Shown here: positions 3,621 to 30,569 of the stretch, one piece after another
How the letters are laid out: each line of letters starts with the position of its first letter
Numbering within the stretch: position 1 is the first letter of the stretch
From: Candidatus Choladousia intestinipullorum
Lineage (GTDB): Bacteria; Bacillota; Clostridia; Lachnospirales; Lachnospiraceae
Direction: 5' to 3'
Length of the DNA: 33,220 nucleotides
Assembly (NCBI GenBank): GCA_018711885.1
Contig: DVHT01000189.1
Location: forward strand, 1 to 33,220
Position numbers and translations under genes: made by a program
Notes under the pieces: generated by a model
Told to the model about the DNA's origin: nothing
Seen by the model: the letters and a program-made list of their open reading frames with translations, nothing else
Databases searched by the model: none

Positions 3621-4484
3621 CTAATTTCCTGCCAATGCTGCTTCGTAGTTCAAAATGACATTCAGATTTGCTTCCTCATAATCATTCAGGTAATAGAACA
3701 TGTTTGCATCAAACTCTTCCGGTGAATACTGCGGAACATACCATGATTTCTGACTGAAATAGTCACGCAGATCCTGCGAGTTGAAGATACGCCCGTTCAG
3801 GGCAAAAATCTCGTTCCGGATCAGGCGCAGCTGCCCTGCGTCATAATTATAAAGCTCACTCTCGTCGATGTACCGGCTGCTGATTCCCTGGATGATCACA
3901 TCATCCGGTGTATAGGCGGATTCTTCGCCTGAGCTTCCGCTGCTGCCGTCATCATACGTGTAATCACCGTTTCCCGGATCAGTAATTTCAATTGTCTGTC
4001 CGCCGGAACCGCCGTCCGTATAGCCGTCGGAACCGCTGTAGCTGCCGTCATCTGTATAACCGCCGTCTCCGCTGCTGCCGTTATCCGTATAGCTGCCATC
4101 TCCGCTGTAGCTGCCGTCTCCGGAACCGCCGTCCGTTCCTGTATCTCCTGATGTTCCGTCAGAACTGATCGGATTTCCCTGCTCGTCTGTCTCCACAGTC
4201 TCCCCATTTTCGTCTGTTTCCGTCGGAGCTTCCGTCTCGACTCCCTTAATAATGTTGCCTGAAGCCGTAACAGTAAATGCATCTGTCTCATAGACTCTGC
4301 TCTCACTGGTCTCCGGCGCAAGCTCCGACGCCGTTTCCTGTTCTTCCGGTTCCGTTCCCGGAGAAGTCAGCATCAGACCGTTTGTCATCGCAGTATCGAC
4401 GGCAAAAAATGATACTGCTGCCGTCAACACACAGCCCGCAAGAAATCCGCTGTTGCGTTTAAAAATATTTGTTTTCTTTTTCAT
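3621..4484 (-). CDS. YARHG domain-containing membrane-anchored protein with Gly/Ser/Asp/Tyr low-complexity linker
   Basis: C-terminus YNYDAGQLRLIRNEIFALNGRIFNSQDLRDYFSQKSWYVPQYSPEEFDANMFYYLNDYEEANLNVI matches the YARHG pattern; N-terminal TM; SYSGDGSYTDNGSSGDGGYTDDGSYSG linker. Confidence 0.85.
   Translation of the reverse strand: MKKKTNIFKRNSGFLAGCVLTAAVSFFAVDTAMTNGLMLTSPGTEPEEQETASELAPETSESRVYETDAFTVTASGNIIKGVETEAPTETDENGETVETDEQGNPISSDGTSGDTGTDGGSGDGSYSGDGSYTDNGSSGDGGYTDDGSYSGSDGYTDGGSGGQTIEITDPGNGDYTYDDGSSGSSGEESAYTPDDVIIQGISSRYIDESELYNYDAGQLRLIRNEIFALNGRIFNSQDLRDYFSQKSWYVPQYSPEEFDANMFYYLNDYEEANLNVILNYEAALAGN
4005..4135 (-). repeat. In-frame degenerate repeat encoding (G/S)DGSY(T/S)(D/G) units
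   Basis: Recurring ctgtagctgccgtc / ccgccgtctccgctg blocks on the plus strand; protein GDGSYSGDGSYTDNGSSGDGGYTDDGSYSGSDGYTDGGSGG. Confidence 0.75.
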
Positions 4485-4548
4485 TATTTATCTCTCACCC
4501 CTTTATGGGGCATCATATCACAGATGTCGAAAAAAGTCTACGGAAACT

Positions 4549-7134
4549 CTATTTTTTCCTGCCGCTCCCATTTATCGCAAATGACGCCGCCGTAGCGGCA
4601 AACATCAGGAGCCCGAACGCCAGCAGAAGAGTCCCGCCGTTCTGGCCCGTTCCCGCAATACGGCCGGCCTTTGCCCCGTCCGCTCCGAGGCTCTGTTCCT
4701 TCATTACCCTTGCTGTACTTTTAAGGGCAGCATCCGCACTCCTTCTGTCCTTTCTGTACCTGGGCGCCTCGTCCGTCTTTTTCCCCACAAATACCGGGAT
4801 TTCCTGACTCCAGTAAGAATTACCGGCCATATCCTCCAGCCAGACCCGGAGCGTCTGCCAGTCTTCCGCCTGATCCAGAGTGATTTTTACCGTCTCGTCT
4901 TCTTTTCCTGCCTCTTCCCGTTCCAGTATCACGGTACTGTCCCGATAGACTTTCATCCGCCTGATCCCTGTATTGTCGTAAGGCGTAACGCAGGCCGTAA
5001 CACATTTTGCATCATACCCCTGCTCCGCTTCGATTCCCGTAACTGTACAGTCCGGAGCTGTCCAGTCCAGCACAAACGCCACCTGCTTTTTCTGAATCCC
5101 CGTGTCGCTTACATTATCCGCACTGTCTTTTGAAGTCAGGAGCAGCTCATATACTCCCTCTTTCTGAAAATACCCCGCCGGAACGGTATAGCAGTACCGT
5201 TTCCAGGAATCCTTCGTTCCCGTCATCGCGACAGAATAATCCACGCCGCGCCTGAGCAGCTCCAGTTCTCCGTCCCGCCTGCAGTAAATATCGGACTCAC
5301 CTACGTAATCAATATTTGTCTCATAAAATGTGATCGGCTCGGCTTTTGAAAGGAAATACTGTCCCAGTTTCTCCCGCGTCTCTTCCGACAGTTCATAGAC
5401 CGATCCGTATCGGTTGACCGAGAATTCTATCATTTCTTCTGCTTTGTTCCCCGCCATATCCTCCGCTGTCACTGACAGCCGATAAATATCGTCATAACTT
5501 TTCTGCACAGGAAAATCAAAGTACCGGACGGCCGCGCCGCGGTCTGTCTCTTTTTTTTCACTGACAGCCGGAAACTTTCCATGATTGATTCCGGCAAATT
5601 CAATCTGCAGGCTGCCGGGTTTATAATGCGCGTCATTTCCTTTTATTTTTACTTTTACCTTCCCTGAATTTGCCGTCTGGTCCTGCACCCCTCCGATCGT
5701 GATCTTGGGAGCGGTCCTGTCTACACAGACGATCCCGCTTTTTGAAAAATGGACGTTTCCGACGTTATCCTCCGTCCTGACAAAAATCTGGTACATCCCT
5801 TCCTGTTCAATCTGTACCGTATGCTCTGTCCTGCATGAAATCCATTCCTCTTTCTGCGGATCGCACAGCAGCCTGCCGCCGCTGTCACAATTTAATACGA
5901 GATACGCTGAAGATTTCAGCCCGCTCCTGCCGTCCGGCGCAACGGTGATCTCTGCTTTGGCTGTATCCGGAACGTACGTTATCCCTCCGGAAACTTTGCC
6001 TGAAAGCGTGATATCAGCAGGCGGAGCTTCCCCGTCAATCGCATACTGCTCCTGACAAGTCTCCGGCACTCCGTCTGATCCGTCTGTGCTCTGCACCTGG
6101 AAGCGGATCATGCCGTCTTCCTGCAGATTTTGAAAGCTCTGTTCCCCGGTGCAGACGCTCCCGGCCTTTGTCTCAAGATAGAGGCTGCTTCCCGGCCTGA
6201 CCCACAGATGTCCCGCTTCGTCACGATACCATGCTCCGGCATCTCCGACAACATCATACCGTTTCTCTGTCTGCTTCTTCTCTTTTTTCTCTTTTTTCTC
6301 TTTCTTCTTTTTCTTCCTGCCGCGTTCTTCCGTGGTCTCTCCCGTCTGCGCTTCTGTCGCTTCAGCCTTTGGGTCTGACACTTCTGTCAAACTTTCCGCC
6401 GCCGTCTCCTGTACCGGCTCTTTGAGTCCTTCCGTACTCATCTGCGTCTGCGGTTCCAAATCGGCTGCCGTCTGCTCGAGACCCCCGGACTCCGGCTCTG
6501 TATTGTCCGCTTTCTCAGAAGCCGCGCTTCCGCCCGGTTTCTCCGTCTTTTCCGTTCCTTCCGGCATTTCTTTTTCCGTCTGTGTTTCTGCCGGCGCAGC
6601 ATCCAATGATATTTGTGTCATTTGTTCCTGCAGCAGCTCCGCTCCTTCTGCGGGCGGCATCGTCTCACTCTCCGCTGATGTCTCCGACTCCGCTGCAGCC
6701 GCGCTCTCCGGCACTTTCTCACTCTCTGATTCTGTCTCCTGCTCTGCCGTCGTCTCACTCTCCGCTGACGTCTCCTGCTCCGCTGCAGTCCCGCTCCCCA
6801 ATATTTTCTCACTCTCTGATTCTGTTTCGTCCTCTGTTTCTGTCCTGCTCTCTGCGCAGCTTTCACTCTCCGGCACTTCCGCGTATACCGGCACTGTCTC
6901 GCTTTCTGCAGCCGGAACAGGGATTTCTGTGCCGCGCACTTTTTCCAGAACAACTGTCCCGAGAGCCGCTGCGATATCGGTGGCTCCGCAGGCGACTGCA
7001 GGCCGGGCCGTATAACACTCTGTATACAGTTCTTCTGCAAAGACCAGGATCACGGCGGCGGCCACGCCAAACGCCAACATTTTCTGCAGCCGCTTTTTCT
7101 TTCTATCTCGCTGTCTCTTCTGTTTCTGTATCAA
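4549..7134 (-). CDS. Large surface protein: N-terminal TM, Glu/Ser/Thr-rich stalk, Ig-like (adhesin-type) repeats, C-terminal TM; probable TTG start
   Basis: ORF track start 7191; SD GAAAGGGG (7143-7150) lies 8 nt upstream of an in-frame TTG at 7132-7134 (LIQKQKRQRDRKKKRLQKMLAFGVAAAVILVFAEEL). Repeated SVTAEDMAGNKAEEM, TSKDSADNVSDT, VWLEDMAGNSYWSQ, VRTEDNVGNVHFS segments as in bacterial Ig-like domains; C-term GTLLLAFGLLMFAATAASFAINGSGRKK. Confidence 0.75.
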   Translation of the reverse strand: MIQKQKRQRDRKKKRLQKMLAFGVAAAVILVFAEELYTECYTARPAVACGATDIAAALGTVVLEKVRGTEIPVPAAESETVPVYAEVPESESCAESRTETEDETESESEKILGSGTAAEQETSAESETTAEQETESESEKVPESAAAAESETSAESETMPPAEGAELLQEQMTQISLDAAPAETQTEKEMPEGTEKTEKPGGSAASEKADNTEPESGGLEQTAADLEPQTQMSTEGLKEPVQETAAESLTEVSDPKAEATEAQTGETTEERGRKKKKKEKKEKKEKKQTEKRYDVVGDAGAWYRDEAGHLWVRPGSSLYLETKAGSVCTGEQSFQNLQEDGMIRFQVQSTDGSDGVPETCQEQYAIDGEAPPADITLSGKVSGGITYVPDTAKAEITVAPDGRSGLKSSAYLVLNCDSGGRLLCDPQKEEWISCRTEHTVQIEQEGMYQIFVRTEDNVGNVHFSKSGIVCVDRTAPKITIGGVQDQTANSGKVKVKIKGNDAHYKPGSLQIEFAGINHGKFPAVSEKKETDRGAAVRYFDFPVQKSYDDIYRLSVTAEDMAGNKAEEMIEFSVNRYGSVYELSEETREKLGQYFLSKAEPITFYETNIDYVGESDIYCRRDGELELLRRGVDYSVAMTGTKDSWKRYCYTVPAGYFQKEGVYELLLTSKDSADNVSDTGIQKKQVAFVLDWTAPDCTVTGIEAEQGYDAKCVTACVTPYDNTGIRRMKVYRDSTVILEREEAGKEDETVKITLDQAEDWQTLRVWLEDMAGNSYWSQEIPVFVGKKTDEAPRYRKDRRSADAALKSTARVMKEQSLGADGAKAGRIAGTGQNGGTLLLAFGLLMFAATAASFAINGSGRKK
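6661..6840 (-). repeat. Two tandem 90-bp imperfect in-frame repeats (30 aa unit)
   Basis: Plus strand cgtctcactctccgctgatgtctccgactccgctgcag... at 6661 and cgtctcactctccgctgacgtctcctgctccgctgcag... at 6751; both continue to ttctcactctctgattctgt. Confidence 0.8.
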
Positions 7135-8812
7135 TCGTATTTCCCCTTTCGTCTTCGAACACTCTCTCCACCGCTTCTTTTGCGGCTTCATACTGTTCCA
7201 GTATCACCTCCCTTTCTTTTCTGTTTTCCCATGCTTCCGCAGATTTTACGAAGGTTTCCAATGTACTCAGCACCGGTTTCACCTCCCGGTAGGCCCGTTT
7301 TCCACTGAATTCTGCCGACCGTACAGCCAAAAATGAAATCAGTTCAGATGCGATCTGCCTTTTCACTTCCGGAAGCTCCAGATCCAGGCCGTCCATGCGC
7401 CAAAGCCGGCACAGATCATCCCAATAAGTCAGATATTCTTCTGCTTCCTGCCCCAGTCCCTTCTTTCCCAGTTTTTCATAATACGATGCGATATCTGCAT
7501 GGATTGAAGCAGACAAAAACCACTCCTCCTGTCTTCCTTCTCCCTTTTCTTTCTGAGAAAGGATTGCCTCCCGAAACCAGAAAGACGCAGCGCTTTTTGC
7601 TCCCGGTCCATCATAAAAATACCAGTAAGCGATCCCCATCTGATAAGCGAAACGCCCGTAGACGTGAGAGTTTTCCTTTAATCTTTCCAGAATTGTTCCT
7701 CCCTGTCCGTCAACGGCTTGATAGACCAGATCCTTTAACTGTTTTTCTTCCTCCATGCTGAATACGTAATCCTCCTCAATCCGTCTCAGCAGACAGAACG
7801 CCCATCTTCCATCTTCCGTGAAAAGACCTGCCGCCTGTTCCAGGCACTCAAGCGCCTGCACGAATCCCAGTCCCTCCGACCGGCTCAGAAGCTCCTGATA
7901 CTGCTTCTTCACACGCGCATCTGTCTCCCCGGAAGGTTCCCAAACGGGCAGTTTGATCAAAAAAAGCAGCGATAAGGAAAGCAAAAAGAATGCTCCCACT
8001 GCCTTGCTGCCCTGCTTTTTCCGTTGATACCGGCGGCGCAAACGCCGCATGACCCGGTACAGTTCCGTGCAGTCCTGAAAACGCTGCTCTTTTTCCGCCT
8101 GCAGACACCGTTCCAAAATCCGTCCGATCTTCCGGACCTGACTTTGGGGCATTCCCGTAAGTTCTGATTTTTTCCGGACCCCCGGCTTTGCCGCTGGCGG
8201 CGCACAGCCATACAGGCAGTAGTACATGGAAGCGCCAAATCCATAGACATCGGTGCGCGCATCCACCTCTCTTCCTCCATACTGCTCCGGCGCCGCAAAT
8301 CCCGGTGTCCCGGCACACCCGGCCGTGCTCTTTGTTCCGCGCAAAAACACAGCGGCGCCAAAGTCGATCAGCACCGGTACTCCGTCTTTCCTGATCAGAA
8401 TATTGGTCGGCTTGACATCCAGATGAAGGACGGGCAGCGTCCTCGTGTGCAAATATCCAAGCACATCCAAAAGCCCGAGTGCAATAGAAAAAAACTGTTC
8501 TGCCGTGAGCCCCCGTTTCGCCAGCTTCGAAAGAACCTGACCTGAAACGTATTCCATGACCAGCCAGATCTGTTCTTTTTCTTCAATCACATCTATGATT
8601 TCCGGCAGAGAAGGATGGCACAGCCTCTTCATCATATCCAATTCATGGATCTGATCTCTGTTCTCAGAAACTGGAAGCCGTTTGGCCGCACGTATCTTCT
8701 CTGTAGAAAGGTGCACTACGAGGTAGACCGTCCCCTCTCCGCCGCTGCCAAGACATCTGAGTTTTCTGTAGCGTCCTCCGATCAGTTCCGTATCCGACCG
8801 CTTGGTTTTCAT
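7103..8812 (-). CDS. Eukaryotic-like Ser/Thr protein kinase with single TM and a helical C-terminal domain (no PASTA repeats)
   Basis: LGSGGEGTVYLV G-loop, AAKRL Lys, LHLDVKPTNIL catalytic loop, VLIDFGAA, GFAAPEQYG, DVYGFGASMYYCL; TM FFLLSLSLLFLIKLPVW. ORF track start 8851; internal ATG at 8812 (MKTKRSDTELIGGRYRKL) preferred. Confidence 0.9.
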   Translation of the reverse strand: MKTKRSDTELIGGRYRKLRCLGSGGEGTVYLVVHLSTEKIRAAKRLPVSENRDQIHELDMMKRLCHPSLPEIIDVIEEKEQIWLVMEYVSGQVLSKLAKRGLTAEQFFSIALGLLDVLGYLHTRTLPVLHLDVKPTNILIRKDGVPVLIDFGAAVFLRGTKSTAGCAGTPGFAAPEQYGGREVDARTDVYGFGASMYYCLYGCAPPAAKPGVRKKSELTGMPQSQVRKIGRILERCLQAEKEQRFQDCTELYRVMRRLRRRYQRKKQGSKAVGAFFLLSLSLLFLIKLPVWEPSGETDARVKKQYQELLSRSEGLGFVQALECLEQAAGLFTEDGRWAFCLLRRIEEDYVFSMEEEKQLKDLVYQAVDGQGGTILERLKENSHVYGRFAYQMGIAYWYFYDGPGAKSAASFWFREAILSQKEKGEGRQEEWFLSASIHADIASYYEKLGKKGLGQEAEEYLTYWDDLCRLWRMDGLDLELPEVKRQIASELISFLAVRSAEFSGKRAYREVKPVLSTLETFVKSAEAWENRKEREVILEQYEAAKEAVERVFEDERGNTIDTETEETAR

Positions 8813-8868
8813 TTCATATCCATACGCCTCCTTTTGTTTGAGAATTTTCATATATAATATGTGATTAT

Positions 8869-9045: not shown

Positions 9046-10737
9046 TCAGATCAGCTCATAGACCGTTCCCGATATCTGTGCGATCTGCTCAATCGCAGCT
9101 GCATGATCTGCAAGGTTCTGGCTCAAGATACAGAGAACGTACACGGAGCCGTCCGTCTCTACGACTGCTGCGTCGTTCTCAACCTGGTCCCCGTACTCTC
9201 CCGCCAGTTCCCCTGTCTTATTCGCCGACAGCGCCGTTGTTCCTTCCAGACCGGCAGGGATCTTGTTTCTGCGTGTCTGGTTCACCAGATACTCATACAT
9301 TTTCGCCGACGCTTCTGCATTGACGCAGGTTCCGCTGTAAATGCTCTCAAGCAGTCTGAGGCAGTCATTTGCAGACGTGTAATTATCGCCTGCCGGGTTT
9401 TCCTCCAGAAACCTGCGGCCCAGTACAGTCGCAGTGTAGCCGTTCTCCTGGCAGAACTGGTTTACGACCTGCATCCCCGTCTGAGCGTCACCGCCTCCGA
9501 GCCGCTCGATCAGGGTATTTGCCGCCTCATTGTCACTGACCGTTATCATATCCGTGATAAGCTGTTTCAGTTCCCCGTCATAGGATTCTTCAAATGTAAT
9601 ATGGCGCTCCTCAGAAGCCGGATAGCATACGCGGTCATAGATCGCGGCCATGATAAACAGCTTGATCACACTGGCCGATTTCATCTGCCGGTCTCCCTCG
9701 ATGCTGCCCTGCGCCCCCGTCGTGAGATTTTTCACGCTGAAAGCCCATTCTTCCCCGGACTCCATAGACGGATAAAGATAGTCTTCACCGACCTGTTCGA
9801 CCAGAGCATTCATCTTTGCCGCCGCTTCTTCCGTGACCGTTTCCTCTTTCATTCCCTTTTCCGTAAAATACCGGTCAATGCCGTCCGCGATCCCTTCCGC
9901 CATCAGCGGCTGTACAGACGGATCTGACATCCTGGAATCGTCGGACTGGTTCGTCATAAAGCCCATCTCCAGGATCATCACCGGAATCTGGCTCCAGTTA
10001 ATCCCCGTCATATTGTCGTAATACTGCACTCCGAGAGATTCAAACGAAGCTTTGCTGCAGTAGGCATCCAGAATACACTGTCCCAGCAGATAAGAATCCT
10101 CCGCCAGATAGCCGACATACGGATTGTCAGAAGACGGGACCATCGCAAGCGCCCCGCTAACGCTGGGATCATCGGAGCCGTTCGCATGGATGCGGACGTA
10201 AATGTCGCCTCCCTGTTCATAGGCAAGCTGCGCCCGCTCTGCGTTGCTGATCGCCGTATCGTGATCCTCTCTCGTCAGAACGACTTCATATCCTCTCTCT
10301 TCCAGCTCATCCCTCAGCAGCAGGGAAATCTCAAGATTCAGTTCGTACTCTTTCTTATCACTGAATGAGCTTTGCGTGCCGGTCGACGCTTTTGCTTTCA
10401 TCTCTGAAGATCCCGGGCCGCTCGGCTCCTGATCGCTCATGTCGACCCAGCTTCCCTGATGCCCCGGATCGATCGCCACAACAAGCTTCTCCTGCGGCTC
10501 GCTCTCCTTCGTCATCCCGGACTCCCCGGTATCATCTTCCGCTGTTTCTGCTTCCGTCGCAGTCACGGTCCCGGTCGCTTCCGTCTGTTCCGGTCTGCTT
10601 CCTCCGCTTTGTCCTCCCGTCTCGCTGTGACCGGCCCAAAGCCATATGACGATTCCCGCACACAGGAGCAAAATGATCACGACCGCCGCCAAAATCCCGG
10701 TGACAGGGATCTCCTTCTTCTTTTTCCGATTCGCCAT
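9046..10737 (-). CDS. N-acetylmuramoyl-L-alanine amidase (amidase_3) fused to class A beta-lactamase-fold serine hydrolase domain, membrane-anchored
   Basis: TM ILAAVVIILLLCAGIVIWLW; amidase motifs VVAIDPGHQG, YELNLEISLLL, YVRIHANGS, VMILEMGFMTN; beta-lactamase-like SASVIK (SxxK), VSDNEA (SDN), NKTGEL (KTG). ATG 10737 with AGGGGAGGT SD preferred over track start 10797. Confidence 0.85.
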   Translation of the reverse strand: MANRKKKKEIPVTGILAAVVIILLLCAGIVIWLWAGHSETGGQSGGSRPEQTEATGTVTATEAETAEDDTGESGMTKESEPQEKLVVAIDPGHQGSWVDMSDQEPSGPGSSEMKAKASTGTQSSFSDKKEYELNLEISLLLRDELEERGYEVVLTREDHDTAISNAERAQLAYEQGGDIYVRIHANGSDDPSVSGALAMVPSSDNPYVGYLAEDSYLLGQCILDAYCSKASFESLGVQYYDNMTGINWSQIPVMILEMGFMTNQSDDSRMSDPSVQPLMAEGIADGIDRYFTEKGMKEETVTEEAAAKMNALVEQVGEDYLYPSMESGEEWAFSVKNLTTGAQGSIEGDRQMKSASVIKLFIMAAIYDRVCYPASEERHITFEESYDGELKQLITDMITVSDNEAANTLIERLGGGDAQTGMQVVNQFCQENGYTATVLGRRFLEENPAGDNYTSANDCLRLLESIYSGTCVNAEASAKMYEYLVNQTRRNKIPAGLEGTTALSANKTGELAGEYGDQVENDAAVVETDGSVYVLCILSQNLADHAAAIEQIAQISGTVYELI

Positions 10738-10783
10738 GATACCTCCCCTTCTCCGGTTCTTGTTCTTCTTATTATTTCCAGCT

Positions 10784-11377
10784 TCAGGAAGCTTCATACT
10801 CCTTCATTGCATCCGCCACCTGCTGTTCACAGCTTCTCATTGCAAGGATGGTCTGCTCCATCAGTTCTTCCAGCGTCCAGCCAAGCCTCTCTGCTCCTTC
10901 TTTTATCACATCCCTGGAACATCCTGCCGCAAAGCGCTTGTCTTTGAATTTTTTCTTCAGGCTCGATACCTCCATATCGGAAACGCTTCTGGACGGACGC
11001 ATCTTTGCTGCCGCGCCGATCAGTCCCGTCAGCTCGTCCACAGCGAACAGTACCTTTTCCATTTCATGTTTCGGCTCTGCGTCGCTGCAGATACCATAGC
11101 CGTGGCTGCAGATGGAATAGATCATTTCCTCGCTCACTCCGCCTTTTTTCAGCAGTTCCGGCGCTTTTTTACAGTGCTGCTCCGGATAGAGCTCAAAATC
11201 AATATCATGCAGCAGCCCTGTGATAGCCCAGTACTGCGCTTCCGCCTCATATCCCAGCTTTTTTGCATACCAGTCCATCACTGCTTCTACCGTCAGTGCG
11301 TGCTGAATATGAAACGGCTCTTTGTTATATTCTTTTAAAAGTGTAAATGCGTCATCTCTTGAAATCGTACTTATCAT
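10784..11377 (-). CDS. HD domain-containing protein (predicted hydrolase)
   Basis: ITGLLHDIDFELYPEQHCKKAPELL, ICSHGYG; AAGGAG upstream of ATG 11377 (track start 11389 is a GTG). Confidence 0.75.
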   Translation of the reverse strand: MISTISRDDAFTLLKEYNKEPFHIQHALTVEAVMDWYAKKLGYEAEAQYWAITGLLHDIDFELYPEQHCKKAPELLKKGGVSEEMIYSICSHGYGICSDAEPKHEMEKVLFAVDELTGLIGAAAKMRPSRSVSDMEVSSLKKKFKDKRFAAGCSRDVIKEGAERLGWTLEELMEQTILAMRSCEQQVADAMKEYEAS

Positions 11378-11490
11378 CCTGTTCTCCACTCCTTCTCCGC
11401 GTCATTCTGCAAATCAGCCGGCTGAAGCAGTATCCCTGCTCCAAAACTGCGCAGCCGCTTTTTTATTATACACTTTAATGCGATACCGCG

Positions 11491-12198
11491 TCAACACTGC
11501 CTCTTGCAGGCATCGTCGAGTGACAGAAGCTGCATCAGCTCCCTCACATTGGACACGGTCATTTCTTCCCGGGCTCCGTGCTCCATCAGAAATTCCTTTG
11601 TCCGGAATCCCCAGCAGACGGAGATGCAATCCATTCCCGCATTTCGGGCGGTCAGGATATCGACGTCGGAATCTCCCACATAGACGGCGCGGCTGCGCGG
11701 GATGCCAAGCTCCGCAAGCGCCTCAAAAACGGAATCGGGGGCCGGCTTTCTCCGGATCCCCTGCCGTTCCCCGATCGCAACGCGGACAAGCTCCGGGAAG
11801 TAGATATCCCGAAGCTTCTTCACGGCAAAATCCGCCTTATTGGAAACGATCGCCACCGCAATGCCTTCTTTTAACAGCCTGTCCAGCAGAAACAAAATGC
11901 CCGGATACGGCTCCGTCTCGTCCATACAGTGTTCATTGTAATGTGTGCAGAAATCACGGTAGACCTCATCAAAGTCGGGGTTATCCTCGCCTCCGGGCAG
12001 CAGCTGCATGATCAGCCTGCGGATCCCGTTCCCCACAAAGCTGCATATCTCTTCCCTTGTACGTGTCGGAAAGCCATACTTCCCGGCTGTCGCGTTCGCG
12101 CTGTTTGTCAGATCAGACAGGGTGTCAAGAAGCGTACCGTCCAGATCAAAAATAACTGCATCGTATCGTCTGTCTTCTGGTCGCATAGGTATTCTCAC
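11491..12198 (-). CDS. HAD family hydrolase, phosphoglycolate phosphatase-like
   Basis: DAVIFDLDGTLLDTLSDL, AIVSNKAD, RKPAPDSVFEAL, AVYVGDSDVDILTARNAGM. Start could also be ATG at 12186. Confidence 0.85.
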   Translation of the reverse strand: MRIPMRPEDRRYDAVIFDLDGTLLDTLSDLTNSANATAGKYGFPTRTREEICSFVGNGIRRLIMQLLPGGEDNPDFDEVYRDFCTHYNEHCMDETEPYPGILFLLDRLLKEGIAVAIVSNKADFAVKKLRDIYFPELVRVAIGERQGIRRKPAPDSVFEALAELGIPRSRAVYVGDSDVDILTARNAGMDCISVCWGFRTKEFLMEHGAREEMTVSNVRELMQLLSLDDACKRQC

Positions 12199-12243: not shown

Positions 12244-12582
12244 TCAAGAAGCCGTTGAAAATTCCACCGTCTTTTCTGATGCCGTATCAAAATTGCCTCC
12301 ATACACTGCACACGGCGCTCTTTTTGCAAAGCTTCTGTATTTCCGGTACATGCGTCCCACGCTGCCGGCTGCATTGCTGGCTGCGATCAGCGCCGCTCCT
12401 GTCAGTACCGTAAACAAAAACCAGAGGAAAAGAAGCACCAGAAACGGAGCCTCCAAAATCTCGATCCCAAACCCCAAAAGTACCGCTGCCTCCTCGAAAA
12501 ACGCTGCAGACACACACAGCCCCCAGCCCTTTGCAGTCAGTTCCGTATCTGTAATTTCTCTTTCCATCCCTGTTCTTCTCAT
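12244..12582 (-). CDS. Small hypothetical membrane protein (112 aa)
   Basis: Hydrophobic segment FLVLLFLWFLFTVLTGAALIAASNAAG; G-rich SD (GGGGG) upstream of ATG 12582; own promoter with LexA-type boxes. Confidence 0.65.
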   Translation of the reverse strand: MRRTGMEREITDTELTAKGWGLCVSAAFFEEAAVLLGFGIEILEAPFLVLLFLWFLFTVLTGAALIAASNAAGSVGRMYRKYRSFAKRAPCAVYGGNFDTASEKTVEFSTAS

Positions 12583-12618
12583 TTCCCCTTACCCCCTGCA
12601 AAATCCATCTCTCATTCC

Positions 12619-12643
12619 GAACTTACGTTCAGAACATTTGTTC
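12619..12643. promoter_or_regulatory. Two tandem LexA/SOS boxes (GAACTTACGTTC and GAACATTTGTTC)
   Basis: Both match the Firmicutes LexA core GAAC-N4-GTTC exactly: 12619-12630 and 12632-12643, 1 nt apart; second extends to CAGAACATTTGTTCTG perfect palindrome. Confidence 0.8.
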
Positions 12644-12651
12644 TGATTCGT

Positions 12652-12680
12652 ATTCTAATACAGATCCGCAGTTTTGGCAA
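12652..12680 (-). promoter_or_regulatory. Putative promoter TTGCCA-N17-TAGAAT of the small membrane protein gene
   Basis: Minus strand TTGCCA (12675-12680), 17 nt, TAGAAT (12652-12657); expected TSS falls in the LexA boxes. Confidence 0.7.
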
Positions 12681-12809
12681 GACCTTTTTTTATCTGACAC
12701 TGGCAGTCTCCTCCCCGGTCTGATACAATAGGCACATACACACACTTAGAAAGGAGATCTTCGCAGCCCCAGGGGAATTGTCTGCTCTTGCGGACTGCTT
12801 TTCAAAGTT

Positions 12810-14360
12810 ATGAATTGTTTCAGCGAAAAAATACATTTATGCATGGAACCGCCGACTGAAGACCATCCGCTGGCCGATCGTGAACGGATCCTTGAGGCGC
12901 TCAGCGAGAAAGGCTTCTCCCCCGTCTCCATGACGCTCCCGGTCCTCCGGAAGCTTTACCCACTCTGCCGGGACAGCGGATGGGATATCACTGCCACCCT
13001 GATCCATACCGAAACAGAAGTCCTCGTCACAGATATTGAGCGCGGAGACACGACAGGCTCGCAATACGGTCTTGCCGCCGACCTCGGTTCTACTACCGTC
13101 GTCATGCAGATGATCGATCTTAATACGGGCGAAACGGTTGCAGAGGCAAAAGCCATGAACGGTCAGATTGCCTTCGGTGATGATATCCTGACACGCATTA
13201 TTTACACAAAGGATCATCCGGAACGCCTCCGGGAAATCACGCAGGCGACGCTCTCCACCTTCCGGAATCTGTTTCAGGAGCTGGAGCGCATCTCCGGCAT
13301 TCCATACGACAGCTGCCCGGCCTTGATCATTGCCGGAAATACGACTATGGTCCATTTTCTGCTCGGGCTGGATGCCTGGACGGTTTTTTCCTCCCCGTAC
13401 GCTCCTGTCGTATCTGATCCCGGCTATTTTTACGGAAGAGAACTCGGTCTTGACTTTTCCGGGATCGTATTCTTCATGCCCGCTCTTTCCAATTATCTCG
13501 GCGGCGATATCACAAGCGGCCTGCTGACGACGGATTTCTATCATCAGGACGGGCTCTCTGTTTTCTTTGATATCGGTACGAACGGCGAACTCGTGCTCGG
13601 AAACAGCAGCTTTTTGCTGGCCGGAGCCGGCGCAGCCGGTCCTGCGCTGGAAGGCGGGATCAGCAAATACGGAATGCGCGCATCGGAAGGTGCGATCGAC
13701 AGGATCACGATATCCGGCGGTTCCCTTACCTTTACCACGATTGGCGGCGGACGTCCCGCCGGAATCTGCGGCTCCGGTATTATTGATCTGATCGCACAGA
13801 TGCGGCTGAATAGCTGGATCGATATCTCCGGACGGCTGGATCCGGACGCGTCGGAGCGCATCGTCTATCTTCCGGAAGAAGAGGAATACGTCGTCGTCTA
13901 CGCGGATCAGAGCGAATCGGCAGACGGAACGATCCGTTACTTTTCCCAGACAAATATCATCCAGTACCTTGATACGAAGGCCGCTGCGCACACCATGATC
14001 GACTGTCTTCTGGAATCATCCGGATTTTCCGCCGACGATATTACTGCTTTTTATACTTCCGGCGCATTCGGTACGTACGCAGATCTGGAATCTGCGATTA
14101 CCGTCGGTATTTTCCCGGATCTTCCGCGCGGACGTTTTCACTGCCTGCACAACAGTTCACTCGCCGGAGCAAAAGAGCTTCTGTTAAACAGGAACCGGCT
14201 GTCCGACATCCGTTATCTGCAGCAGACCGTCTACTGTGTCCAGTTCGCCTCCATGCCGGATTTCCTGATAAAAATGCAGGCTGCAAAGTTTATTCCCCAT
14301 ACGGATATGCGGCAGTACCCGACCGTGGAAGACGCCCTTCACAACATTCATCGCAGATAA
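12810..14360 (+). CDS. ASKHA domain protein (DUF4445), corrinoid activator C-terminal-like, lacking the N-terminal 2Fe-2S ferredoxin domain
   Basis: YGLAADLGSTTVVMQMIDLNTG, MNGQIAFGDDILTRI, ALIIAGNTTMVHFLLGLD, LSVFFDIGTNGELVLGN, AGAGAAGPALEGGISKYGMRASEGAI, ICGSGIIDLIAQM, FYTSGAFGTYADLESAITVGIFPDLP. Start codon uncertain. Confidence 0.85.
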   Translation: MNCFSEKIHLCMEPPTEDHPLADRERILEALSEKGFSPVSMTLPVLRKLYPLCRDSGWDITATLIHTETEVLVTDIERGDTTGSQYGLAADLGSTTVVMQMIDLNTGETVAEAKAMNGQIAFGDDILTRIIYTKDHPERLREITQATLSTFRNLFQELERISGIPYDSCPALIIAGNTTMVHFLLGLDAWTVFSSPYAPVVSDPGYFYGRELGLDFSGIVFFMPALSNYLGGDITSGLLTTDFYHQDGLSVFFDIGTNGELVLGNSSFLLAGAGAAGPALEGGISKYGMRASEGAIDRITISGGSLTFTTIGGGRPAGICGSGIIDLIAQMRLNSWIDISGRLDPDASERIVYLPEEEEYVVVYADQSESADGTIRYFSQTNIIQYLDTKAAAHTMIDCLLESSGFSADDITAFYTSGAFGTYADLESAITVGIFPDLPRGRFHCLHNSSLAGAKELLLNRNRLSDIRYLQQTVYCVQFASMPDFLIKMQAAKFIPHTDMRQYPTVEDALHNIHRR

Positions 14361-28965: not shown

Positions 28966-29031
28966 GTTTAAAACAAAATTGAACTTTAAACTTTTGAACT
29001 TTTAAGGAGCTTATGATGGAAAATGAACTTT
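28937..29031 (+). repeat. Four copies of TTGAACTTT-like motif
   Basis: TTGAACTTT at 28937-28945, 28979-28987, 28994-29002; ATGAACTTT at 29023-29031. Confidence 0.8.
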
Positions 29032-30569
29032 TTGCGGACCGGCTGAAATACGCCATGCAGGCACAGAATATGAAACAGGTTGATCTGGTACGGGCGGCCG
29101 CCGGATGCGGCATAAAGCTCGGTAAGAGCCACATCAGCCAGTACGTGAGCGGGAAGACGGTTCCCCGCGCGGATACACTCCGTGTTCTGGCAGAGATCCT
29201 GCACGTAGACGAAAACTGGCTCAGAGGATCAGGCGCCGGACCGGAACCGGACCGGACGTCCTCGGACGCCGCAGGCGGCAGCGCGCCGGAGCAGTCTGTT
29301 TTGATCCATAAAAAAAACACCCCTGACGGGATGACATCTTTGGGAGGAAGTAATATGCGCGAATTTAAAAAATCATCAAAATTAAACAATGTATTGTACG
29401 ATGTCCGCGGACCTGTCGTAGATGAGGCCGAGCGGATGGAAGAATCAGGTACTCAGATCCTGAAATTGAACATCGGCAATCCCGCGCCTTTCGGCTTCCG
29501 CACACCTGACGAAGTAATCTATGACATGCGTCAGCAGCTGACGGAATGTGAGGGCTACTCTCCGGCCAAAGGTCTCTTTTCCGCCCGGAAAGCGATCATG
29601 CAGTACGCGCAGATCAAAAAAATACCGAATGTCACGATTGAAGATATCTACACAGGCAACGGCGTCAGCGAGCTGATCAACCTGTGTATGTCGGCTCTGT
29701 TAAACGATGGCGATGAAATCCTCATCCCGTCCCCGGATTATCCGCTCTGGACTGCCTGCGCCACACTTGCCGGCGGCAAAGCTGTCCACTATATCTGCGA
29801 CGAACAGTCCGAATGGTATCCTGATATGGAAGATATCAAAAAGAAGATCAATGACCGGACGAAAGCCATCGTCATCATCAATCCGAACAACCCGACCGGA
29901 GCCCTGTATCCGAGAGAAGTCCTGCAGCAGATCGTCGATATCGCAAGGGAGCATCAGCTCATCATCTTTTCGGATGAGATCTATGACCGTCTGGTCATGG
30001 ACGGAGAAGAGCATGTCTCCATCGCCTCTCTCGCTCCGGACCTGTTCTGTGTGACCTACAGCGGACTGTCCAAGTCCCATATGATCGCCGGATTCCGGAT
30101 CGGCTGGATGATCTTAAGCGGCAACAAACGGATCGCAAAAGATTATATTGAAGGGCTCAAAATGCTCTCCAACATGCGGCTCTGCTCCAATGTACCGGCC
30201 CAGTCCATCGTGCAGACGGCCCTCGGCGGACATCAGAGCGTCAATGATTATATCGTTCCCGGCGGCAGACTTTATGAGCAGCGGGAATGCATCTACAATG
30301 CGCTGACCGATATTCCGGGCGTAAGCGCCGTGAAGCCTAAAGCTGCATTTTACATCTTCCCGAAGCTGGATGTCAAAAAGTTCAATCTTGCAGACGATGA
30401 ACGGTTTGCGCTCGATCTGCTGCGGGATAAGAAAATCCTGCTGATACACGGCGGCGGGTTCAACTGGCACCAGCCCGACCATTTCCGTATCGTCTATCTG
30501 CCGCGGATCGAGGTTCTGAAAGAATCCGCTGAAAAGATTGCAGACTTTTTAAGCTATTATCACCAGTGA
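29016..30569 (+). CDS. XRE-family HTH domain fused in frame to AlaA-type PLP-dependent aminotransferase
   Basis: N-term FADRLKYAMQAQNMKQVDLVRAAAGCGIKLGKSHISQYVSGKTVPRADTLRVLAEILHVDENWLRG (XRE HTH); C-term LKLNIGNPAPFGFRTPDEVIYDMRQQL...IINPNNPTGALY...SGLSKSHMIAGFRIGWM. ATG 29016 has better SD spacing than 29013. Confidence 0.85.
   Translation: MENELFADRLKYAMQAQNMKQVDLVRAAAGCGIKLGKSHISQYVSGKTVPRADTLRVLAEILHVDENWLRGSGAGPEPDRTSSDAAGGSAPEQSVLIHKKNTPDGMTSLGGSNMREFKKSSKLNNVLYDVRGPVVDEAERMEESGTQILKLNIGNPAPFGFRTPDEVIYDMRQQLTECEGYSPAKGLFSARKAIMQYAQIKKIPNVTIEDIYTGNGVSELINLCMSALLNDGDEILIPSPDYPLWTACATLAGGKAVHYICDEQSEWYPDMEDIKKKINDRTKAIVIINPNNPTGALYPREVLQQIVDIAREHQLIIFSDEIYDRLVMDGEEHVSIASLAPDLFCVTYSGLSKSHMIAGFRIGWMILSGNKRIAKDYIEGLKMLSNMRLCSNVPAQSIVQTALGGHQSVNDYIVPGGRLYEQRECIYNALTDIPGVSAVKPKAAFYIFPKLDVKKFNLADDERFALDLLRDKKILLIHGGGFNWHQPDHFRIVYLPRIEVLKESAEKIADFLSYYHQ
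29355..30569 (+). CDS. alaA: Alternative/internal CDS: stand-alone AlaA-type aminotransferase (404 aa)
   Basis: Internal ATG 29355 (MREFKKSSKLNNVLYDVRGPVVDEAERME) preceded by strong SD GGGAGGA (29342-29348) with 6-nt spacing. Confidence 0.6.
   Translation: MREFKKSSKLNNVLYDVRGPVVDEAERMEESGTQILKLNIGNPAPFGFRTPDEVIYDMRQQLTECEGYSPAKGLFSARKAIMQYAQIKKIPNVTIEDIYTGNGVSELINLCMSALLNDGDEILIPSPDYPLWTACATLAGGKAVHYICDEQSEWYPDMEDIKKKINDRTKAIVIINPNNPTGALYPREVLQQIVDIAREHQLIIFSDEIYDRLVMDGEEHVSIASLAPDLFCVTYSGLSKSHMIAGFRIGWMILSGNKRIAKDYIEGLKMLSNMRLCSNVPAQSIVQTALGGHQSVNDYIVPGGRLYEQRECIYNALTDIPGVSAVKPKAAFYIFPKLDVKKFNLADDERFALDLLRDKKILLIHGGGFNWHQPDHFRIVYLPRIEVLKESAEKIADFLSYYHQ

Follow-up and report, generated by a model that had tools for sequence, protein, structure and literature searches.

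Tandem LexA boxes in the 33,220-nt window (the whole stretch of DNA analyzed, contig C104 of a 2.2-Mb, 204-contig genome that is ~89% complete) precede a small gene that is, by all the sequence tests available, a member of the LexA regulon. The gene is very probably an SOS gene under LexA control, with LexA occupancy and induction expected from its operators. It encodes a 112-aa protein of a new family, a predicted membrane hairpin that by sequence is outside the YneA and SosA families. With fair confidence, the product is considered a membrane checkpoint effector, repressed by LexA, that takes the place of YneA and probably stops septation. The features of the locus are, in the direction of transcription:

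12681..12705, unstranded: site of an extra box in relatives, with its end ~10 nt upstream of the -35; the window genome retains none
12675..12680, minus strand: -35 element TTGCCA, TTGCA[A/T] in relatives
12652..12657, minus strand: -10 element TAGAAT, 17-nt spacer to the -35
12632..12643, unstranded: LexA box 1, GAACATTTGTTC (GAACAAATGTTC on the minus strand), 8 nt past the -10; counterpart in most homologs
12619..12630, unstranded: LexA box 2, GAACTTACGTTC (GAACGTAAGTTC on the minus strand), 1 nt past box 1
12585..12590, minus strand: SD-like AAGGGG, 5' of the ATG
12244..12582, minus strand: 112-aa predicted hairpin membrane protein, new family (P0001)
12460..12522, minus strand: predicted membrane helix 1, ~residues 21-41, with conserved Cys23 and Glu-Glu 30-31
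12382..12444, minus strand: predicted membrane helix 2, ~residues 47-67, with an FLW motif
12247..12255, minus strand: C-terminal Thr-Ala-Ser, a degron-like end of the -A-[A/S/C] type

The original prediction described two exact GAACN4GTTC motifs 1 nt apart, at 12619-12630 and 12632-12643, just downstream of a minus-strand TTGCCA-N17-TAGAAT promoter, and both elements were found as described (-35 at 12680-12675, -10 at 12657-12652). It also placed the transcription start within the boxes. When the start is set 6-8 nt past the -10, it is predicted at ~12644-12646, at the margin of the first box and not in its interior, and the boxes span ~+1 to +27. The window contains no other GAACN4GTTC site. 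A counterpart of box 2 is also found at eight other loci of the family. The common layout among relatives is GAACN4GTTC-GAAAAA-N2-4-cTTGCA-N17-TATAAT/TAGAAT-N5-8-GAACN4GTTC, often with a third box 1 nt further; the window copy has kept both downstream boxes and lost the upstream one. Boxes on both sides of the core promoter point to tight repression, which would suit a gene whose product is costly or does harm when made needlessly.

Taken alone, the window is weak evidence, as two or more sites occurred in 14 of 100 shuffles. Single sites are at chance level in the window genome, which has 21 GAACN4GTTC sites versus 24 for a reversed control pattern. Most of the 21 are intragenic; the exceptions are those at recA (box GAACTAACGTTC), a Y-family DNA polymerase gene (polY), an rSAM_link_UDG repair gene, and the window pair. 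The adjacent pair is not a chance occurrence: the expected count per genome is ~0.006 for pairs within 30 nt, and pairs at 0-30 nt spacing occur in 14 of the 47 genomes of the genus versus none of the 47 for the reversed control. Paired boxes mostly precede either this small-gene family or the rSAM_link_UDG gene.

Conservation of the boxes upstream of orthologs, the check proposed for the original prediction, was confirmed. At least one exact box precedes 20 of the 26 same-genus orthologs, versus a chance expectation of 0.4%; at least two precede 17, and 24 have a box within one mismatch in the ~400 nt upstream. No recognizable box was found in the G022/G032 subgroup (L031 and L034). The genes adjoining the small gene vary by genome (MATE, RACo, ABC-transporter, GH1-like, AmtB-like, HAD and HD genes), and the boxes are kept across these differing neighborhoods at a fixed position relative to the promoter; hence they belong to the small gene. 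The divergent RACo gene (12810-14360) starts ~170 nt off the boxes, and this proximity, together with the chance level of single sites genome-wide, could be taken to mean that the boxes are accidental or serve RACo, the small ORF being ordinary or outside SOS control. Such a reading is highly improbable given the conservation across unrelated neighborhoods, the excess over expectation and the presence of the same box at recA. Service to the divergent gene was rejected specifically because the upstream gene differs between genomes.

The window genome encodes LexA (contig C182) and RecA (contig C9), and LexA is present in 46 of the 47 genus genomes. recA has exactly the same box, at a fixed position, in 26 of 29 genus loci, that of the window genome included. 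Since these genomes have LexA and share the box at recA, GAACN4GTTC is taken as the LexA operator of the genus. The motif is quoted as the Bacillus subtilis LexA operator (PMC4234289). In another study, sites of this kind that had been predicted from gut metagenomes proved to be bound by the B. subtilis repressor (PMC3998124). For autoregulation of lexA, crude motif searches found a GAACATATGTGC variant in eight genomes and none in the lexA promoter of the window genome. That lexA lies on a separate contig with other neighbors, and the small gene is not divergent to it.

Two other sets of boxes were seen in the genus. The rSAM_link_UDG gene (TIGR03916; five loci, the model match having been run on L166) has paired LexA boxes that bracket the -10 in several genomes; its copy in the window genome has one box. 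At another locus (L145, on contig C192 of G015), three LexA boxes precede an XRE-type regulator gene, possibly the switch of a mobile element.

The product was originally described as an uncharacterized small membrane protein, and this description holds: no family in Pfam, NCBIfam or PHROGs fits it, and neither a sequence nor a fold match was found in the PDB. The AlphaFold2 model has helices at residues 9-37 and 46-87 with a mean pLDDT of 64 (moderate confidence), and hydropathy is consistent with it. A second model, of the relative L077, is poor (mean pLDDT 51.5) and again has two long helices. The predicted two-helix hairpin contains an LT..G...C core motif; Leu15, Gly19, Cys23, Ile40, Phe52, Trp54 and Leu56 are among the positions invariant or nearly so in 22 members. 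The core is, from its codons, under purifying selection, with dN/dS well below 1 (e.g., dS 0.59, dN 0.04). Many members, the window protein included, have a positively charged tail after helix 2, and this, with the nearly uncharged loop, suggests that both termini of the hairpin lie inside.

A short, hydrophobic protein that is tightly repressed by multiple boxes might instead be a LexA-controlled toxin of the TisB or holin type, which would depolarize or permeabilize the membrane and cause dormancy or death with no specific block of division. Weak matches to Phage_holin_3_6 (Pfam) in three of the 22 members, the best with E 6e-4, point the same way, but they look compositional. The N- and C-terminal tails are long, polar and often strongly charged, and conservation at Cys, Glu and Leu-Thr positions points to specific contacts. 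Furthermore, there is no PHROG family, no phage or plasmid relative was found, and the surroundings are of housekeeping type with no prophage. A toxin is thus unlikely.

Of the 47 genus genomes, 29 have a match to the family profile, and a search of 347 other genomes gave no convincing one; an alignment search with the close subgroup returned eight loci, in MAGs of uncultured Lachnospiraceae. Weak profile matches outside the genus (E 1e-4 to 5e-3) were rejected as chance, and the best of them, L076, shows neither a box nor the LT..G...C part. On a recA tree of the genus, the genomes that carry the family are scattered and fall on either side of the midpoint root; this distribution fits an old acquisition followed by losses.

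YneA has a nearly reciprocal distribution. Full-length YneA (NF010723 model) is found in 58 of 72 other genomes of the same bacterial family, covering most of its other genera and often adjacent and divergent to lexA with LexA boxes, and in only one of the 47 genus genomes, G037. This genome has two lexA genes (loci L192 and L271; contigs C226 and C25), and its yneA is on C226 with the second lexA. The lexA native to G037 shares 97% identity with that of the sister genome G026, and the lexA beside yneA is closest to that of another genus. A swap of YneA between sister genomes was considered and rejected, as there are two lexA genes and the C226 copy looks foreign; by sequence, C226 is probably contamination from another genus. 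No yneA was seen beside lexA at the other genus lexA loci examined. Thus one genus seems, from these searches, to have lost the lexA-linked YneA and to have the new family instead. The main gap is that ~17 of the 47 genomes show neither; some of these are incomplete, and several are >95% complete. In genus members lacking the family, 14 regions behind recA-recX were searched by profile, and no hidden homolog was found.

The C-termini carry a second line of evidence. Ends of the form -A-[A/S/C] occur in 15 of 26 members versus 3 of 277 background ORFs, a statistic that is inflated by relatedness. The tails vary in length and sequence, and the same end recurs in subgroups whose tails are otherwise unlike. 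The tmRNA (ssrA) tag of the window genome itself is AEDNLAYAA, which the family ends resemble; they have the small nonpolar, ssrA-type final residues of C-degron substrates of ClpXP or Tsp. SOS division inhibitors are typically unstable. The ends are likely, judged from their residues, to be a signal for a C-terminal protease, and the protein is probably short-lived. Five or so members are without such an end, which counts against the checkpoint reading. Turnover of the staphylococcal inhibitor SosA depends on its C-terminus (PMC6851548).

Two genes downstream of the small gene are of interest:

11491..12198, minus strand: phosphoglycolate-phosphatase-like HAD phosphatase, 45 nt downstream of the small gene and possibly co-transcribed with it
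10784..11389, minus strand: HD-domain protein; in G010 and G036 a homolog follows the small gene directly

The HAD gene is also directly downstream of the small gene at four other loci. Phosphoglycolate arises from oxidized DNA ends, and an SOS link of the HAD gene is conceivable. The gene order in G010 and G036 is recA-recX-small gene-HD. Recurring neighbors such as recX, the HAD gene and the HD gene, and the patchiness within the genus, would suit an SOS membrane protein with another function (in envelope stress, in transport, or as a modulator of RecA/LexA or of the adjacent phosphatase) that inhibits neither growth nor division. This, too, is unlikely: no partner is fixed, the neighbors varying among AmtB-like, MATE, ABC-transporter and RACo genes, and the reciprocal absence of YneA and the degron-like ends are left unexplained.

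Three other arrangements were noted in the window. A 583-aa ORF (9046-10797, minus strand) fuses an N-acetylmuramoyl-L-alanine amidase (Amidase_3) to a class A-like Beta-lactamase2 domain. A 518-aa ORF (29013-30569, plus strand) runs from an XRE-type HTH_3 into a class I/II aminotransferase and is either a fused regulator-enzyme or has a mis-called start. A Ser/Thr protein kinase is encoded beside an 880-aa bacterial Ig-like-domain protein and a YARHG-domain protein (3621-8851, minus strand).

The checkpoint reading is drawn from three considerations: i) YneA is absent; ii) the protein and its regulation are of the expected type; and iii) unrelated small membrane proteins provide precedents. 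The near-absence of YneA and the degron-like C-termini lend independent support to the suggestion, made in the original prediction, of a division inhibitor. By analogy, that role is reasonably likely for the small membrane protein, its target being presumed.

The family resembles YneA of B. subtilis (NF010723/PRK14125) in being a small LexA-repressed membrane protein that is expected to be unstable. YneA has one TM helix and an extracellular LysM domain and is encoded beside lexA, whereas the new family has two predicted helices and no LysM, and is located elsewhere, often near recA-recX. There is no detectable sequence similarity between the two, and the YneA model had no match in 27 family loci. 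YneA targets FtsW through its TM helix, and in B. subtilis this helix alone does not inhibit division, the LysM being needed (PMC13396833). Without the LysM that YneA needs, any division inhibition by the new family must work differently.

The Gram-positive SOS division inhibitors YneA and SosA are themselves unrelated small membrane proteins turned over through the C-terminus, and SosA, SOS-induced in Staphylococcus aureus, is an example of an unrelated protein that replaces YneA in another lineage (PMC6851548). SosA has 77 aa, a single N-terminal TM helix and an extracellular C-terminus; in contrast, the new family has two predicted helices with polar tails on both sides, a hairpin whose C-terminus is probably cytosolic. 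By analogy, the small protein probably works like YneA and SosA.

More distant precedents come from Gram-negative bacteria. SidA of Caulobacter is a small membrane protein that is induced by DNA damage and inhibits late division steps. DidA, also of Caulobacter, is another small DNA-damage-induced membrane protein that inhibits late division steps (PMC4211646). Both are single-helix proteins from Alphaproteobacteria with no known sequence relation to the new family, and DidA is SOS-independent. The family shares with TisB its LexA control and short membrane product, but no antisense RNA partner was seen here, and an Rfam search of the window gave no match. TisB is a 29-aa depolarizing membrane peptide of E. 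coli that is LexA-controlled and has an antisense RNA.

The proposed sequence of events would be as follows. With LexA dimers bound to the tandem boxes, which lie at the transcription start, RNA polymerase would be blocked; in most relatives, LexA would also sit on the box just upstream of the -35. Upon DNA damage, RecA-stimulated cleavage of LexA would release the promoter. The hairpin would then block septal cell-wall synthesis by contacting the divisome within the membrane, doing the job of YneA. Its small nonpolar C-terminus would direct it to degradation, by ClpXP or a C-terminal protease, and division would resume once LexA returns. The complete picture is tentative, possible rather than probable: an unrelated two-helix SOS checkpoint family may have displaced the ancestral lexA-linked YneA in one gut Lachnospiraceae genus, blocking septation within the membrane with no peptidoglycan-binding domain and being removed through a cytosolic ssrA-like C-terminus.

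SOS control of division uses very different small membrane proteins across bacteria, and the inhibitor of Lachnospiraceae is little studied; a search of open-access journal articles found none that treats Lachnospiraceae and an SOS box together. The locus provides a defined protein family with its operators, and likely a case in which a checkpoint gene was swapped for an unrelated one. If the protein blocks division without a LysM, it would reveal what effect two membrane helices can have by themselves on the septal machinery; the TM helix of YneA, by contrast, is insufficient on its own (PMC13396833).
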